Shown one piece after another: positions 3,438 through 9,610 of a stretch of DNA of 64,000 nt (position 1 is its first letter; each line of letters opens with the position of its first letter). The notes under the pieces are model-generated. The model saw only the letters and a program-made list of their open reading frames with translations, was not told the origin of the DNA and ran no database searches. Source of the stretch: Alphaproteobacteria bacterium (GTDB taxonomy: Bacteria; Pseudomonadota; Alphaproteobacteria; Rhodobacterales; Rhodobacteraceae); NCBI GenBank assembly GCA_030425185.1, contig JAUIAU010000004.1, positions 1 through 64,000 on the forward strand. The letters run 5' to 3'. Both the position numbers and the translations under genes were made by a program.

Positions 3438-4013
3438 TCAGCAGGCCCGGACGCCGAGCCGGATCAGGTCGCTGCCGCGCACCTGGCTCATCCCCACGAT
3501 CACGTAGCGGGCCTCGCGCAGGAACCAGCCGCGGATCGGGCTGGGGTAGTGGTCGGCCATGACCCGCGACCAGCGTTCGAACTCGGCCGGGGCCAGCCCG
3601 ACGCCGTAGATCTGGCTGGACGGTCCGTGAAACCCGAAGACCGTGGTCGGCGCGACGCAGGCGTTCGGCAACCCGAGATACATCGTGCAGGCCGAGTTGC
3701 AGTAGGCCCCGGTGATGCGCACCGAGGTTCCGGTGGCCCGCAGGCGACGGATCAGCTCGACCCGCCGGTCGAGGCGTCCGCCTTGGTCGTTGCCGACGAT
3801 CAACGTGTCCGCCTGCGCCGGGGCGGGCCCGGGCCGGGGCTGCGGATCGAAGGGCGCGGCAAGCAGCAGGGCCGCTGCCAGCGCCGCGATGGCTGCGGCG
3901 TGTCCGATCTTTCGGGCGGGTCTGGCCCGAACGGTTCTGAATAGACGGTCCCCGAAGCCGCAGGGCGCAGTCCGCCCCGCCAGCTTCAGACCGATGGTCT
4001 GAAACGGTTTCAT
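3438..4013 (-). CDS. Exported ClpP/crotonase-fold-like protein of unknown function
   Basis: A 191-residue protein with an unusually long basic N-terminus (about 35 residues) before a hydrophobic alanine-rich segment (about 38-55) that looks like a signal or anchor. The rest resembles periplasmic ClpP-like proteins (COG3904 type): GGRLDRR, then YCNSACTMYLG with a serine placed like the ClpP nucleophile, then VFGFHGPS supplying a possible histidine. Three cysteines in the mature part (YCNSAC, NACV) could form disulfides, and the protein ends in Cys. The ATG has a good upstream GAGGGGAC. Proteolytic activity is not established for this group. The gene stands alone, convergent with sulP. Confidence 0.65.
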   Translation of the reverse strand: MKPFQTIGLKLAGRTAPCGFGDRLFRTVRARPARKIGHAAAIAALAAALLLAAPFDPQPRPGPAPAQADTLIVGNDQGGRLDRRVELIRRLRATGTSVRITGAYCNSACTMYLGLPNACVAPTTVFGFHGPSSQIYGVGLAPAEFERWSRVMADHYPSPIRGWFLREARYVIVGMSQVRGSDLIRLGVRAC

Positions 4014-4726: not shown

Positions 4727-5083
4727 TCAAAAGAACTCGATCCCTGTCTCCTGTGGCGGTCGCTCCTCGCTCAGAAGCCGCGTGCGCAGGGTCTCCAGTG
4801 GCACGGCCCGGATCCCGGCGATCAGCCCGGCGTCCCCGGGTTCGCGTGCCAGCAGACCCAGCACCGCGCCCAGTGCCTCCAGCGTCTGGCGCAGCATGTC
4901 CAGTTCCTGCAGTTCCTGCACCAGCTTTCTCGGGGTCTCGTTGGGCTTGTCGATGACATCGCCCAGCGCGGTTTCGATCCGCACGATTGCCTGCGCCAGC
5001 GTCAGGACCTCCTCGGCGCAGAGCCCGGCCAGCACGGACGCCACACCCGGGGCCGTCGCGGGCGCCTGCGCCGGATCGGTCAC
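4727..5083 (-). CDS. Small helical protein ending the che operon; candidate CheT/CheZ-like phosphatase
   Basis: The 118-residue protein is predicted to be mostly alpha-helical and has no clear family match by eye. It overlaps the upstream cheY by 4 nt (ATGA), so it is translationally coupled to it. Residues 57-70 include D62-M-L-R-Q66, an Asp/Gln pair spaced i, i+4 on a helix, as in the catalytic motif of CheZ-type CheY phosphatases. Its position after the second cheY matches cheT, the last gene of the Sinorhizobium che operon, whose product is of similar size. The CheT/CheZ assignment is inference from position, size and the D-X3-Q motif. It could instead be an unrelated adaptor. Confidence 0.6.
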   Translation of the reverse strand: MTDPAQAPATAPGVASVLAGLCAEEVLTLAQAIVRIETALGDVIDKPNETPRKLVQELQELDMLRQTLEALGAVLGLLAREPGDAGLIAGIRAVPLETLRTRLLSEERPPQETGIEFF

Positions 5084-5466
5084 AGCCGCCCGACCACGGC
5101 TTCGAGGCAGGCCCTGAGATCCTGCGCCGCGAAGGGCTTGGCGAGATAGTTGTTCAGCCCCAGTGACTTGCCCTTCGCGATCAGGTCCCGATCCGCGCGC
5201 CCGGTGATCAGGATGAAGCCGATTGCCCGCATCGCGGGGGTCGCCCGGACGCGTGCCAGCAGATCGAGGCCCGACATGCCCGGCATGTTGTAGTCCGACA
5301 GCACGAGGTGCACCGGGGCGCGTTGCAGGACGGTCAGCGCCTCCTCCCCCGACTCGGCCGTCTCGACATGCGCGAGGCCGAAGCCCTCGAGCGCCTGGAC
5401 GATCAGGCCCCGGCTGGTCGACATGTCGTCGACGACGAGCAATCTCAGCTTGTCACGCAGGGACAT
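5080..5466 (-). CDS. cheY: CheY-type single-domain response regulator (second in operon)
   Basis: A stand-alone receiver domain of 128 residues. The canonical residues are visible: acidic pair D13/D14 (VVDD), phospho-acceptor D58 (LSDYNMPG), T88 (ILITG) and K110 (LAKPF). Translation starts at the ATG at 5466, inside the end of cheR (14-nt overlap); an upstream open extension antisense-like in composition is not used. By analogy with rhizobial che operons this second CheY would be the motor-binding regulator phosphorylated by CheA. The small protein downstream may dephosphorylate it. Confidence 0.9.
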   Translation of the reverse strand: MSLRDKLRLLVVDDMSTSRGLIVQALEGFGLAHVETAESGEEALTVLQRAPVHLVLSDYNMPGMSGLDLLARVRATPAMRAIGFILITGRADRDLIAKGKSLGLNNYLAKPFAAQDLRACLEAVVGRL

Positions 5467-6373
5467 CCGGACCTCCGCCACCGTTGGGCGCGGCACCCGG
5501 GGCGGGGGTGTCCGTGCGTTGATAAAGCGTCGTGCCCGCCTGCCGGAAGCAGCCGAGCATCGGGCCGACGATGCGTTCGGAATGACCGAGAAACAGCCAG
5601 CCGCCGGGCCGGATCGCGGCGGCGAACCTGGGCCAGAGCGACAGGCGCAAGCTGTCGTCGAAGTAGATGACGACATTCCGGCAGAAGACCACGTCGAACG
5701 GGTGCCGCATCGGCCAGGGTTCGAGCAGGTTGTGGACATTGAAGATCACACGGCGGCGCAGCGCGCTCCGCACCGTGACGTGATCCGCCTGCTCCGTCTC
5801 GAGCAGCGCCGCGCGGCGATCGGGCGGCATGCCCTTGACCCGGCCCGCGTCGTAGCGCCCGGCCCGCGCGGCGGCGATCATCTCGGCATCGATGTCGGTC
5901 GCAAGGATACGCGCCCGGGTCGCGGCGGCCTCGCTCCAGGCGATGTCCAGTTCGGCGGCCAGCGTATAGGGTTCCATGCCGTCCGAGCACCCGGCGGACC
6001 AGAAGCGGACGGGCGCGCTTCGGTCGCGCCCGGCGGCCAGTGTCGGCAGGATCGTTTGGCGCAGGACCTCGAAATGGTGGGGTTCGCGGTAGAAGGAAGT
6101 GATGTTCGTAGTCAGCGCCCCGACAACGATCCGCAGGTCCTCGGGGTCCGGGCCCGCGTCGAGGCGCGCGAGGAAGCTGCGCAGGTCCGGGAGGCCCAGC
6201 GCCCTGGCCTGCTTGCGCAGCCGCGATTCGACCATCGGGCGCTTGATCGGGCTCAGCGACAGACCGGCCGCGTCCCGCACCAGACCGGCGATCCGGGCAA
6301 AGTCGTCCGGGCCGAGCGTGCCGGCGTCGGCAGTGCCACCGGTCAGGGGCCGGGTCTGGGGCAGGGCACCCAT
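5453..6373 (-). CDS. cheR: CheR chemoreceptor methyltransferase
   Basis: SAM-dependent methyltransferase that methylates glutamates on chemoreceptors. The 306-residue protein has the helical N-terminal domain (about 20-95, ending TTNITSFYREPHHF) and the catalytic Rossmann domain with FWSAGCSDGMEPYTLA (125-139), LATDID (157-162) and the FCRNVVIYF signature (230-238). The ATG at 6373 is 2 nt from the cheW stop; a longer in-frame extension into cheW was rejected. The matching methylesterase gene cheB, normally next to cheR, is missing. Confidence 0.93.
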   Translation of the reverse strand: MGALPQTRPLTGGTADAGTLGPDDFARIAGLVRDAAGLSLSPIKRPMVESRLRKQARALGLPDLRSFLARLDAGPDPEDLRIVVGALTTNITSFYREPHHFEVLRQTILPTLAAGRDRSAPVRFWSAGCSDGMEPYTLAAELDIAWSEAAATRARILATDIDAEMIAAARAGRYDAGRVKGMPPDRRAALLETEQADHVTVRSALRRRVIFNVHNLLEPWPMRHPFDVVFCRNVVIYFDDSLRLSLWPRFAAAIRPGGWLFLGHSERIVGPMLGCFRQAGTTLYQRTDTPAPGAAPNGGGGPDVPA

Positions 6374-6375
6374 GA

Positions 6376-6879
6376 TCAGATCAGCGCCGATGTCCGGGGC
6401 GGCAGGACGGCGGAGAGGTCCAGCACCCGCGTCAGGCAGTCGCCGTGCAGTGCGATCGACGAGAGAAAGCGTGCCCCGTCCTCGCCGGTCAGGTCCGGTG
6501 GCGCGTCGAGCGCGTCGGACGGGACGGTCAGGATGTCGGAGACCGCGCTGACCAGCAGCCCGATGCTGCGCCCCTCGGCCTCGATTACAATAATGACGTC
6601 GCGCCCCGAGGCCTCGCGCCGGCCGAGCCCCAGCCGTTCCGAGAGGTCCATGATGGGCAACACGGTGCCGCGCAGGTTGATCACGCCGCGGAGGTAGCCC
6701 GGCGCGTGCGGCAGTGGTGTCGGCTTGCTCCAGCCCCGGATCTCGCGGACGGACATGATGTCGACCGAGTATTCCTGTCCGCCCAAGTGGAAGGCCAGTA
6801 ACTCGATCTGGCGATCCTCCGGGAGAGGCGGCGCCTCCGGGACGGGCGCAGCGCCGGGATCGGGGACGGCTTGGGTCAT
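6376..6879 (-). CDS. cheW: CheW chemotaxis coupling protein
   Basis: Adaptor that links CheA to chemoreceptors in the membrane array. The 167 residues form one CheW/SH3-like domain after a proline/alanine-rich N-terminal extension of about 23 residues. Typical segments are EYSVDIMSVREIRGW, GVINLRGTVLPIMDL and GLLVSAVSDIL. The start overlaps the cheA stop by 4 nt (ATGA). Confidence 0.93.
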   Translation of the reverse strand: MTQAVPDPGAAPVPEAPPLPEDRQIELLAFHLGGQEYSVDIMSVREIRGWSKPTPLPHAPGYLRGVINLRGTVLPIMDLSERLGLGRREASGRDVIIVIEAEGRSIGLLVSAVSDILTVPSDALDAPPDLTGEDGARFLSSIALHGDCLTRVLDLSAVLPPRTSALI

Positions 6880-8942
6880 GGCATGGTCTCCGCAAGCGGG
6901 CGGCGGGCCCCGGGGGCGTGTTCGCGCAACTCGATCGGGTCGAGGATCAGGGCAACCTGCCCGTCGCCGAGGATGGTGGCCGCGGCGATCCCGGGGATCG
7001 GACCGTAGCTGTCCCCGAGGCCTTTGATGACGACCTGCCGCTGATCGGCGATGCGGTCCACGGTCAGGGCATAGCGGCTGCCGCCCTCGGCCTGGACGAT
7101 CAGGGCGACGCAGCCGGCGAGGTCGTCGCGGCGTGGGTGGTGCCCGAGCACCTCGCCGAGATCGAGGAGGGGCAGCATGCGCCCGCGCACCCGCAGCACA
7201 CGGCTTTCGGGGGTCAGCGCATCCATGTCCGCGCCGGTCACGGTCTGGGTTTCGAGAACCGCGCCGAGCGGCATCACCATGGTTTCGCCCCCGGCCTCGA
7301 CCACCATGCCGTCGAGAATGGCCAGCGTCAGCGGCAGCGAGATGCTGAAGGTCGTGCCCTGGCCGGGCTCGGTGGTGATGGCGATCCGCCCGCCGAGGGT
7401 CTGGATCGCGCGCTTGACGACATCCATGCCCACGCCGCGGCCGGACAGGTCCGACACCGTATCGACGGTCGAGAATCCGGGCTGGAAGAGCAGGGCATCG
7501 AGGTCCGAGGGGGTCGGGTCGGCCTCCTCGGACAGCAGTCCCCGTTCGATGGCGCGGGCCCGGATCCGCGCCCGGTCGAGGCCGCCGCCGTCATCGCTGA
7601 CGTCGATGATGACCCGGCCGGAGCGGTGGTGCGCGGCGAGGTGGACGGTGCCCTCGTCCGGTTTCCCGGCGATGCGGCGGACCTCGGTCGATTCCAGTCC
7701 GTGATCGACCGCGTTTCGGATCATGTGCGTCAGGGGATCGGTCAGCTTGTCGAGCACCGTCTTGTCGATCTCGGTGCCTTCGCCGCTGGTCTCGAGCCGC
7801 ACGGCCTTGCCGGTCCGGGACGCGGCCTCGCGCACGATCCGCCCCATGCGCTGGAAGAGCGGCTTGATCGGTTGCGCCCGGATCATCATCACGCTGTCCT
7901 GGATGTCGCGCGTGAGTTGCAGGAACTCGTCGAGACCCGCCATCACCGGCGAATTCGGCGGAAGGCTGCCCTGTCGCACCGATTGCGACAGCATCGCCTG
8001 GTTGATGACCAGTTCGCCGACGAGGTTCACGAGGCGGTCCACGCGGTCGAGATCGACGCGAACGGTCGGGGTTTGCGTCGTCGCGGCCGAGGCGGAGGAC
8101 GCGGCCGGGGGCGGCGCGGCAGGGCCCGCGCCGGGCAGGTTCTTGTCCGGCGGCGGCGGGTCGGCGGGGACCGGGACCGCTGCGGGTACGGGATCCTCGT
8201 CGGCTGTCACCTCCAGGTCGCAGAGCCCTGCCGCGAATTCGAACGCGGCCTCGATATCGGCTGTGGTCACGCCCGGGGCGCAACGCACGGTCCAGTGCAG
8301 GTAGCTCGATTCAGGGTTGAGCGTGGCGAGATCGGGCAGCGCCTCGGCATGGCAGGTCACCTCGGTCGGGCCGAGCCGGGACAGGGCCGCGAGGATGTGG
8401 CGCGGATCGTTGCCGGACAGGTAGAGTTCCTCGTGCGGACGGAAGCTGAGCCGCAGCGGCGCGGGCGCGTCCGCGGGGGTGTCGTCATCGAGGGGAATCG
8501 CCAGCATGGCGGGCGCGAAGTCGAGGTCTTCCTCCCGCTCCTCCGGCAGGGTGCCGAGCAGCCCGTCGAGATCGGCCAGAACGCTGTCCTCCGCCCCGGC
8601 ATCGGTCGGCAGGCCGTCACGGCTGGCGCGCACGAGATCGCCCAGCAGGTCGGCCGCCCGCAGGAAGAGTTGCAGCGCGCCCGCGTCGGCCTCGATCCGC
8701 CCGGTGCGCAGGGCGTCGAGGCCGCTTTCGAAGCGATGGGCAAAGGTCACCAGCCGGTCCAGTCCGAACGCCCCGGCGCCGCCCTTGATCGAGTGGACGG
8801 CGCGGAACACGGAATGGACCGTGTCGGTGTCGCCGCTCCCGGTCGAGAGGGCGTCCAGCCCTTCCAGCAGTGCCTCCAGCAGGTCCTCGCATTCCAGGAA
8901 GAAGGTCTTGCGGATCGCGTCCATTGGATCGGGACCAGCCAT
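6876..8942 (-). CDS. cheA: CheA chemotaxis histidine kinase
   Basis: Sensor kinase of the chemotaxis array (688 residues). Domains in order: HPt with phospho-acceptor H50 (HSIKGGAGAFG), a P2-like regulator-binding region around 165-255, a proline-rich linker, the P3 dimerisation helix near 293-350 (VDRLVNLVGELVINQA), an ATPase domain with the N-box HMIRNAVDHGLE and a G-rich GRGVGMDVV loop, and a C-terminal CheW-like domain. Length and order are standard. The gap from the upstream cheY is 3 nt. It should phosphorylate the two CheY proteins of this operon. Confidence 0.95.
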   Translation of the reverse strand: MAGPDPMDAIRKTFFLECEDLLEALLEGLDALSTGSGDTDTVHSVFRAVHSIKGGAGAFGLDRLVTFAHRFESGLDALRTGRIEADAGALQLFLRAADLLGDLVRASRDGLPTDAGAEDSVLADLDGLLGTLPEEREEDLDFAPAMLAIPLDDDTPADAPAPLRLSFRPHEELYLSGNDPRHILAALSRLGPTEVTCHAEALPDLATLNPESSYLHWTVRCAPGVTTADIEAAFEFAAGLCDLEVTADEDPVPAAVPVPADPPPPDKNLPGAGPAAPPPAASSASAATTQTPTVRVDLDRVDRLVNLVGELVINQAMLSQSVRQGSLPPNSPVMAGLDEFLQLTRDIQDSVMMIRAQPIKPLFQRMGRIVREAASRTGKAVRLETSGEGTEIDKTVLDKLTDPLTHMIRNAVDHGLESTEVRRIAGKPDEGTVHLAAHHRSGRVIIDVSDDGGGLDRARIRARAIERGLLSEEADPTPSDLDALLFQPGFSTVDTVSDLSGRGVGMDVVKRAIQTLGGRIAITTEPGQGTTFSISLPLTLAILDGMVVEAGGETMVMPLGAVLETQTVTGADMDALTPESRVLRVRGRMLPLLDLGEVLGHHPRRDDLAGCVALIVQAEGGSRYALTVDRIADQRQVVIKGLGDSYGPIPGIAAATILGDGQVALILDPIELREHAPGARRPLAETMP

Positions 8943-8945
8943 GGG

Positions 8946-9329
8946 TCAGCCCGCCACGCGGTCGAGCGCCTGCAGCAGGCGGTCGGGGTCGAAGGGCTTG
9001 ACGATCCAGCCGGTCGCGCCTGCATCGCGCGCCTGCGCCTTGAGGGTCTGAGCGCTTTCGGTCGACAGGACGAGGATCGGCACCAGCCGAGTCGCTGGGC
9101 GCTGGCGCAGTGCGCGGATCAGCCCGATCCCGTCGAGGCGGGGCATGTTGATGTCGGTGATGACCAGATCGGGGCGCGGCAGGCCGTCGGGCAGCCCGTC
9201 GTCGAGAATCCGGAGCGCATGTTCGCCGTCTTCCGCCACGATGGTGCGATGCCCGGCCCCGTCGAGGGTCAGGCGGACCATGTCGCGGATGGTGCGCGAG
9301 TCGTCCACGGCAAGAACGGACAGGGTCAC
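8946..9329 (-). CDS. cheY: CheY-type response regulator (first in operon), GTG start
   Basis: A 127-residue receiver domain with D9/D10 (AVDD), phospho-acceptor D59 (VITDINMPR), S89/T90 and K111 (IVKPF). The start is GTG at 9329, overlapping the upstream stop as GTGA. An open extension further upstream lies inside the STAS gene in another frame and was rejected. In Sinorhizobium the CheY next to cheA (CheY1) is a phosphate sink, and this gene occupies the same place. That role is inferred from synteny only. Confidence 0.9.
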   Translation of the reverse strand: MTLSVLAVDDSRTIRDMVRLTLDGAGHRTIVAEDGEHALRILDDGLPDGLPRPDLVITDINMPRLDGIGLIRALRQRPATRLVPILVLSTESAQTLKAQARDAGATGWIVKPFDPDRLLQALDRVAG

Positions 9330-9610
9330 GCGGTGCCCTCCGGTGTCACGTCGAGTCCGGTGTCCGGCAGGCCGTAGTCGGCCAGCGCCGCCGTCAGGGC
9401 GAGGGACGGGTCGCGCAGCCGCACCGGGGTGCCGGTGTCGCGGCAGGATCGGGCGAAGGACAACAGGACCTGCAGGCAGAGACCGCCAAGGTGCACCACC
9501 GCCTGGCCGTCGAGGATCAGGGGCTGGCCGAGATGCGCGCGCAGGATGTCTGCAAGCCCCGCGGCGACGGCGCTGTCCATGCGGGCGGGCAGGGGAAGCA
9601 CGGCACTCAT
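9326..9610 (-). CDS. STAS-domain protein heading the che operon (CheS-like position)
   Basis: A 94-residue STAS-like (anti-sigma-factor-antagonist fold) protein: an initial variable strand, ILDGQAVVHLGGLCLQVLLSFA with the serine-to-loop region, and a C-terminal strand/helix ALADYGLPDTGLDV. The start was placed at the ATG at 9610; an upstream ATG at 9658 would add 16 arginine-rich residues unlike the fold. In Sinorhizobium a 97-residue protein, CheS, precedes cheY1-cheA and aids CheY1 dephosphorylation on CheA. This gene has the same size and place, so a CheS-like role is a reasonable inference. Confidence 0.7.
   Translation of the reverse strand: MSAVLPLPARMDSAVAAGLADILRAHLGQPLILDGQAVVHLGGLCLQVLLSFARSCRDTGTPVRLRDPSLALTAALADYGLPDTGLDVTPEGTA

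Follow-up and report, generated by a model that had tools for sequence, protein, structure and literature searches.

A chemotaxis operon in a Rhodobacteraceae genome points to a cheOp1-like chemosensory system that recurs without CheB in the family

The present analysis concerns a chemotaxis (che) operon in the window, i.e. the 64,000-nucleotide stretch at the start of contig JAUIAU010000004.1 of the Rhodobacteraceae assembly GCA_030425185.1 (G000), and the question of how a system with the methyltransferase CheR and no methylesterase CheB may close its adaptation cycle. At 4727-9610 on the minus strand, open reading frames (ORFs) form seven tightly packed genes whose ends overlap or nearly abut (Table 1); the start of the second cheY overlaps the cheR stop, and the last gene has a GTG start overlapping the stop of that cheY. 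In this family the ordinary chemosensory system has such an operon, cheS-cheY-cheA-cheW-cheR-cheY-cheT, as its core. Because only one CheR and only one chemoreceptor were found, the operon probably represents the only chemosensory system of the genome, and it presumably serves a flagellar motor, FliG being present.

Table 1. Genes of the che operon and an ORF downstream of it, with window coordinates.
Feature	Length (aa)	Coordinates	Strand	Basis
STAS-only protein, CheS-like	94	9326..9610	-	Pfam STAS_2 E 1.6e-7
cheY (first), response regulator receiver, GTG start at 9329	127	8946..9329	-	Pfam Response_reg E 2.1e-24
cheA	688	6876..8942	-	Pfam Hpt, H-kinase_dim, HATPase_c, CheW
cheW	167	6376..6879	-	Pfam CheW E 1e-35
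cheR	306	5453..6373	-	Pfam CheR E 4.6e-56 and CheR_N
cheY (second), response regulator receiver, ATG start at 5466	128	5080..5466	-	Pfam Response_reg E 7.6e-24
cheT-like helical protein, QxxDxxxQ (Q59, D62, Q66)	118	4727..5083	-	motif and profile alignment
Uncharacterised ORF, likely N-terminal hydrophobic segment	191	3438..4013	-	

The genome (3.66 Mb in 206 contigs, completeness 99.99) gave no match to CheB (PF01339) anywhere, with stops read through; the same profile matched in 6 of 14 control genomes, among them Thermotoga maritima and Bacillus subtilis. Genome-wide there is one CheR, which is the window gene, one methyl-accepting chemotaxis protein (MCP), one CheD and one FliG. The sole cheD stands directly behind the sole mcp on contig C72, with 304 bases between them, and this pair has no cheR. 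A hybrid CheB-CheR protein and a recognisable cheB remnant were also considered and are rejected, since PF01339 has no match and CheR is single. The MCP (1010 aa from the chosen ATG; Pfam MCPsignal, HAMP and PAS, with dCache_1 below its cut-off) ends in QWDEF, a WxxF tail of the CheR-docking type, with methylation-site motifs positioned at -77 and +112 relative to the hairpin. In CheD (Pfam CheD E 4.8e-25), positions -6, 0 and +17 are occupied by Thr, Cys and His, which we take, in both role and spacing, to be its catalytic residues. Of CheB and CheD, the two enzymes searched for, CheD would be the only receptor-modifying hydrolase here. The sequence-only reading of the window had supposed that adaptation is closed by an enzyme encoded elsewhere or works differently; among enzymes encoded elsewhere CheD alone fits. 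The intact cheD on C72 is apparently followed by a short, incomplete tandem duplicate of its 3′ part (L001:3083-3355, plus strand).

The same reading had described the operon as the Sinorhizobium order with exactly cheB and cheD taken out and without an adjoining chemoreceptor gene. As a description this is borne out: the S. meliloti record runs mcp-STAS-response regulator-cheA-cheW-cheR-cheB-response regulator-cheD-hypothetical (124 aa), and no mcp adjoins the window operon, where neither cheB between cheR and cheY2 nor cheD between cheY2 and cheT is found. As history it does not hold within the family. Sixty loci, the window included, were annotated with profiles built in this analysis, one from each of 60 of the 141 family genomes with a CheA match, picked by CheA similarity or CheB absence. 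A STAS gene lies near cheA in all 60 and cheT is present in 54, three of which have no cheR, and in none of the 51 loci holding both cheR and cheT does cheB or cheD lie between them. Deletion of the two genes from within the operon is rejected by this family-wide layout. Rather, many relatives have a separate mcp-cheB-cheD module, either next to the core, in one orientation or the other, or at another place, of which the mcp-cheD pair on C72, without cheB, is the counterpart in this genome. Judged by gene order, then, the missing piece is the cheB of that module and not a set of operon-internal genes. Core operons without cheR also occur, as STAS-cheY-cheA-cheW in G269 (L036, a single-contig genome) and as STAS-cheY-cheA-cheW-cheY-cheT in G125 (L029), and in neither genome was there a CheR or CheB match. 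In the CheB-less G137 (L031) the cheR reading is split in two, by frameshift or sequencing error.

A survey of 295 genomes of the family found CheB in 146, CheR in 161, a CheA match (E <= 1e-60) in 141, MCPs in 157 and CheD in 122, the last including two below the family cut-off; MCP counts are lower bounds for genomes with more than 11 candidates, of which 11 were scored. Seventeen CheR-bearing genomes have no CheB, and four of these were set aside, namely G099 and G224 (CheR E 7e-4 and 1e-4), G070 (E 3e-25, no CheA match) and G267, which has CheA and a CheR in three partial matches (E 8e-24). CheB is thus absent from 13 of the 137 genomes that have both a CheA match and a sound CheR, all 13 of which hold the core operon; with G267 counted the figures are 14 of 138, with CheD in 12 of the 14. 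Some of the 124 CheB-bearing genomes have a CheA match of only 36–40% identity, which may represent another CheA class. The absence of cheB noticed in the window extends to the whole assembly, and it is not peculiar to this genome.

On a CheA tree of 77 rows made by a quick method, in which the CheB state of 12 rows is unknown, for want of a sound CheR or because the kind of CheB is unknown, CheB state changes at least seven times, or five with five rows from metagenome-assembled genomes (MAGs) and G118 (84% complete) set aside. Three CheB-less groups each span two or more genera: G092, G128, G137 and G247 (support 98); G005, G052, G210, G257 and G282, together with G267 of unknown state (support 93); and G003, G103, G319, G328 and G330 (support 99). 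The remaining CheB-less rows are a congeneric pair and single rows. G003 is a single contig of 3.56 Mb. In the genus of the window CheR occurs in two of six genomes, the second being G298, where no CheB was found but which is only 81% complete, and whose che contig is the same as that of L084. Eighty named loci were also collected, of which 38, with no cheB seen next to the core, were chosen for a CheB search; among the 37 searchable, CheB is absent in six, a figure that gives no estimate of prevalence. Five of the six are MAGs, one of them, G299, sharing its che contig with G298; the sixth is Sulfitobacter sp. 20_GPM-1509m (G301), a cultured member in which cheD adjoins the core operon (L098). 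Frames of more than 900 aa account for many of the CheB matches, and some of these frames also contain CheR (e.g. G252:C6), which suggests CheB-CheR hybrid proteins; in some genomes, such as that of L131 (G302), no CheB match of another kind is present. Because such matches are many, genomes without a chemotaxis-type CheB may exceed 13. As far as gene content and layout can tell, there is in the family a recurrent CheB-free form of a chemosensory system like cheOp1 of Rhodobacter sphaeroides. Since the assembly shows none of the usual demethylating enzyme and other genera of the family share the gap, the memory step of chemotaxis is probably closed by an unusual route in this bacterium.

Receptor tails, site motifs and CheD residues were read in the CheB-less genomes. 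Of the 12 that have CheD, 11 show beside cheD an mcp with a WxxF end and one to three methylation-site motifs; in this reading of tails and sites the 21 CheB-bearing rows were hand-picked, one (L170) having an mcp other than the cheD-linked one, and L168 was omitted. The CheD Cys and the His 17 residues on are kept in all 13 CheDs read from the 12 genomes. G257 (L034, L168) has two CheDs, and its mcp-cheR-cheD-cheW cluster bears a divergent CheR. Gln at the second residue of the main site pair was compared in cheD-adjacent MCPs at the sites -77 and +112 from the hairpin, over readable rows, with nine loci dropped (four duplicates and five unreadable or without anchor, L168 among them) and seven further ambiguous loci kept out of the test. 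It occurs in 2 of 11 CheB-less and 16 of 28 CheB-bearing receptors (p = 0.037, uncorrected, independent pairs being too few for a tree-based test).

The two accessory proteins of the operon had been proposed from the window to resemble CheS and CheT, and profile comparison agrees in both cases. An alignment of the STAS family matches the S. meliloti protein at the cheS position with hhalign probability 99.1 (E 6.6e-19). For the 118-aa family, the profile aligns with the protein at the cheT position at probability 90.5 (E 1.4e-6), the QxxDxxxQ motif that both bear being brought into line, and a control comparison of the same profile with S. meliloti CheS gave probability 0.1. All 48 aligned rows have Q59, D62 and Q66, and so do all 133 rows of a larger family set in which some sequences are duplicated. 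A Pfam search of the 118-aa protein gave no significant match, and a search against plasmids gave none. Its AlphaFold model has two long helices at moderate confidence (mean predicted local distance difference test score, pLDDT, 72.5). The CheT profile had 15 matches among PDB sequences up to E 10, with keratin (E 6.9e-5) and further unrelated proteins of helical build at the top, and none was CheZ. From these comparisons the assignment of the STAS protein as CheS-like and of the 118-aa protein as CheT-like is supported. In S. meliloti, CheS is reported to bind CheA and to sort phosphoryl flow between the two CheYs, and CheT to carry a DXXXQ phosphatase motif, to promote dephosphorylation of one CheY of the pair and to bind CheR (PMC12654446). 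The 118-aa protein has this DxxxQ motif, within its QxxDxxxQ.

Selection on the operon is also visible. Against the che-bearing congener all seven genes are intact and constrained, with ratios of nonsynonymous to synonymous substitution (dN/dS) of 0.06–0.24, among them 0.117 for CheR, 0.092 for CheT, 0.170 for CheA and 0.236 for STAS. In the S-adenosylmethionine-site stretch of CheR the invariant Gly and Glu are kept, the Asp that precedes the Gly and the Met between the two being unusual. By these measures CheR evolves under constraint and is probably still in use. The CheR, CheA and CheW of CheB-less genomes depart from family-conserved positions more often than others do, in an uncorrected count in which L167 (on the same contig as L084) was mislabelled as CheB-bearing and which also took in duplicates and L168, a CheR paralogue; since CheA and CheW show it too, the greater deviation is not specific to CheR.

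The surroundings of the operon look unrelated to chemotaxis. Downstream of it lie a short uncharacterised ORF and a permease of the SulP type (Pfam Sulfate_transp), and the upstream genes look by their appearance like sugar metabolism. The 191-aa ORF just downstream (Table 1) had no significant match in Pfam or NCBIfam. A CtrA-type site (TTAA-N7-TTAA, at most one mismatch) upstream of the operon was sought and rejected, both window matches (n = 2) lying elsewhere.

How adaptation might run in such a system can be proposed from these parts. CheR would methylate the receptor; CheD would reverse this as receptor deamidase and glutamyl methylesterase, replacing phospho-CheB; and, because there is no phosphorylated CheB, feedback from phosphorylated CheY (CheY-P) would need another protein, most plausibly CheT. 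The eraser role is given to CheD because T. maritima CheD is reported to hydrolyse glutamyl methyl esters besides deamidating (PMC12654446, PMC3579733). That CheD reverses CheR methylation instead of CheB in the CheB-less core system is a reading we favour tentatively, at somewhat short of an even chance. The wider proposal, in which several lineages of the family run a CheB-free cycle with CheR writing, CheD erasing and CheT relaying CheY-P feedback, and in which this genome is a minimal example, is doubtful as a whole. Chemosensory systems occasionally without CheB or CheR have already been noted (PMC2829493); in the open-licence literature we found no description of genomes with CheR and CheD but without CheB.

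Several observations weigh against erasure by CheD. The absence of CheB does not go with more frequent CheD, which is kept in 12 of 13 CheB-less and 107 of 124 CheB-bearing genomes (Fisher p = 1), and the CheB-less G052 lacks CheD too. In G257, the twelfth CheD-bearing genome without CheB, no mcp was found next to one of the cheDs, and the mcp clustered with the other has neither tail nor site motifs. The residue six before the CheD Cys, which we assume to be the catalytic Thr, varies: five of the 13 CheDs have Ser, Ala or His there. Foldseek of the CheT-like model (pLDDT 72.5) against PDB returned nothing at E <= 0.001, so that a CheZ-like fold is unsupported. In the Fla1 systems of R. sphaeroides, cells lacking every CheB are reported to be stoppy, and none of seven tabled cheB or cheR deletion strains responded like wild type (PMC6829392). 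The assembly itself is also a point on this side, being in 206 contigs. In relatives che or cheD genes lie on plasmids, as in Leisingera and Phaeobacter, or on chromids, which makes it conceivable that a cheB of this genome sits on an unassembled plasmid or in a gap, or was left unbinned, and marker-gene completeness says little about plasmids. We give this possibility a small chance, considering that completeness is 99.99, that the module expected to hold cheB was assembled without it, that the congener G298 also has no CheB, though it is only 81% complete, and that the absence spans whole clades and a single-contig genome.

If cheB is truly missing, CheD need not be what takes its place. Methylation by CheR could be one-way, with no enzymatic reversal, setting sensitivity during growth and being renewed by receptor synthesis, in which case adaptation would be slow or partial. 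The swimming of R. sphaeroides strains without CheBs has been read as signalling by fully methylated receptors, and cells with cheB2 deleted retained a response, though an inverted one (PMC6829392). A single chemoreceptor is found in 5 of 13 CheB-less and 3 of 124 CheB-bearing genomes (p = 1.7e-4, uncorrected for phylogeny), an excess to be expected if demands on adaptation are lower, and the rarity of Gln at the second site residue in CheB-less receptors, itself uncorrected, points the same way. CheD and the receptor tail nevertheless remain conserved, and we regard one-way methylation as unlikely, if worth serious attention; purifying selection on CheR fits its continued use yet cannot separate reversible from one-way methylation. 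That CheR is a leftover of a decaying system whose chemotaxis is no longer adaptive is a good deal less probable. It would be consistent with CheR in only two of the six genomes of the genus, with the cheR-less core operons of G125 and G269, with the divided cheR of G137 and with the greater deviation from family-conserved positions in the uncorrected count with its mislabelled and duplicated rows, but the seven genes here are intact and constrained, and the deviation is shared by CheA and CheW. Least probable of all, in our estimate, is demethylation by an unrelated esterase. Nothing positive favours it beyond the need for some substitute in several clades if adaptation is intact; little speaks against it except that such activity is already reported for the CheD of another species, the ORFs run against Pfam being only a few neighbours of the operon.

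Compared with known systems, the operon shares seven genes in the same order with that of Sinorhizobium meliloti and Agrobacterium, mcp-cheS-cheY1-cheA-cheW-cheR-cheB-cheY2-cheD-cheT, and CheS and CheT are homologous; there, cheB and cheD lie inside the operon, whereas in Rhodobacteraceae they lie outside it and in this genome cheB is absent. In Helicobacter pylori-type systems chemotaxis runs with no known CheB, as may be the case here, but H. pylori is not known to have CheR either, whereas CheR is kept in this genome. T. maritima and B. subtilis offer a CheD that acts as a receptor-modifying hydrolase, as is proposed here, with both deamidase and methylesterase activity in T. maritima, but these species also have CheB, as the PF01339 control matches indicate, unlike this genome. 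In them CheC is reported to act with CheD (PMC3579733).

The nearest described system is cheOp1 of R. sphaeroides, which resembles the present one in having cheD and cheR and no cheB. We take its order to be mcp-cheD-STAS-cheY-cheA-cheW-cheR-cheY, an order present at L026, L030, L033, L052 and L057, whereas in this genome mcp-cheD lies on another contig than the core operon. The two may be orthologous, having been likened by gene content and by this gene order rather than by sequence. CheOp1, which controls Fla2, is listed with cheD, cheW1, cheR1, cheY1, cheY2, cheY5, receptors and also a cheX (PMC7277832), in a gene list that omits cheA1 and may be incomplete. The CheBs described for R. sphaeroides are those of cheB1 (cheOp2), cheB2 (the fla1 locus) and cheBRA (PMC7277832, PMC6829392), and because all known CheBs of the species are encoded elsewhere, cheOp1 has no cheB; CheBs from other loci are thus available there, in contrast to this genome, which has none. 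In vitro, R. sphaeroides CheA1 is reported to phosphorylate CheY1, CheY2 and CheY5, and not CheB1 or CheB2 (PMC2829493).

The standard account of bacterial adaptation pairs CheR with CheB. Recurrent lineages with CheR, a methylatable receptor with a docking tail, mostly CheD, and no CheB would be natural test systems, in which a methylesterase role of CheD and the link between CheT and CheR could be tested without prior knockout of CheB. The finding also bears on how the cheB-free cheOp1 of R. sphaeroides adapts.

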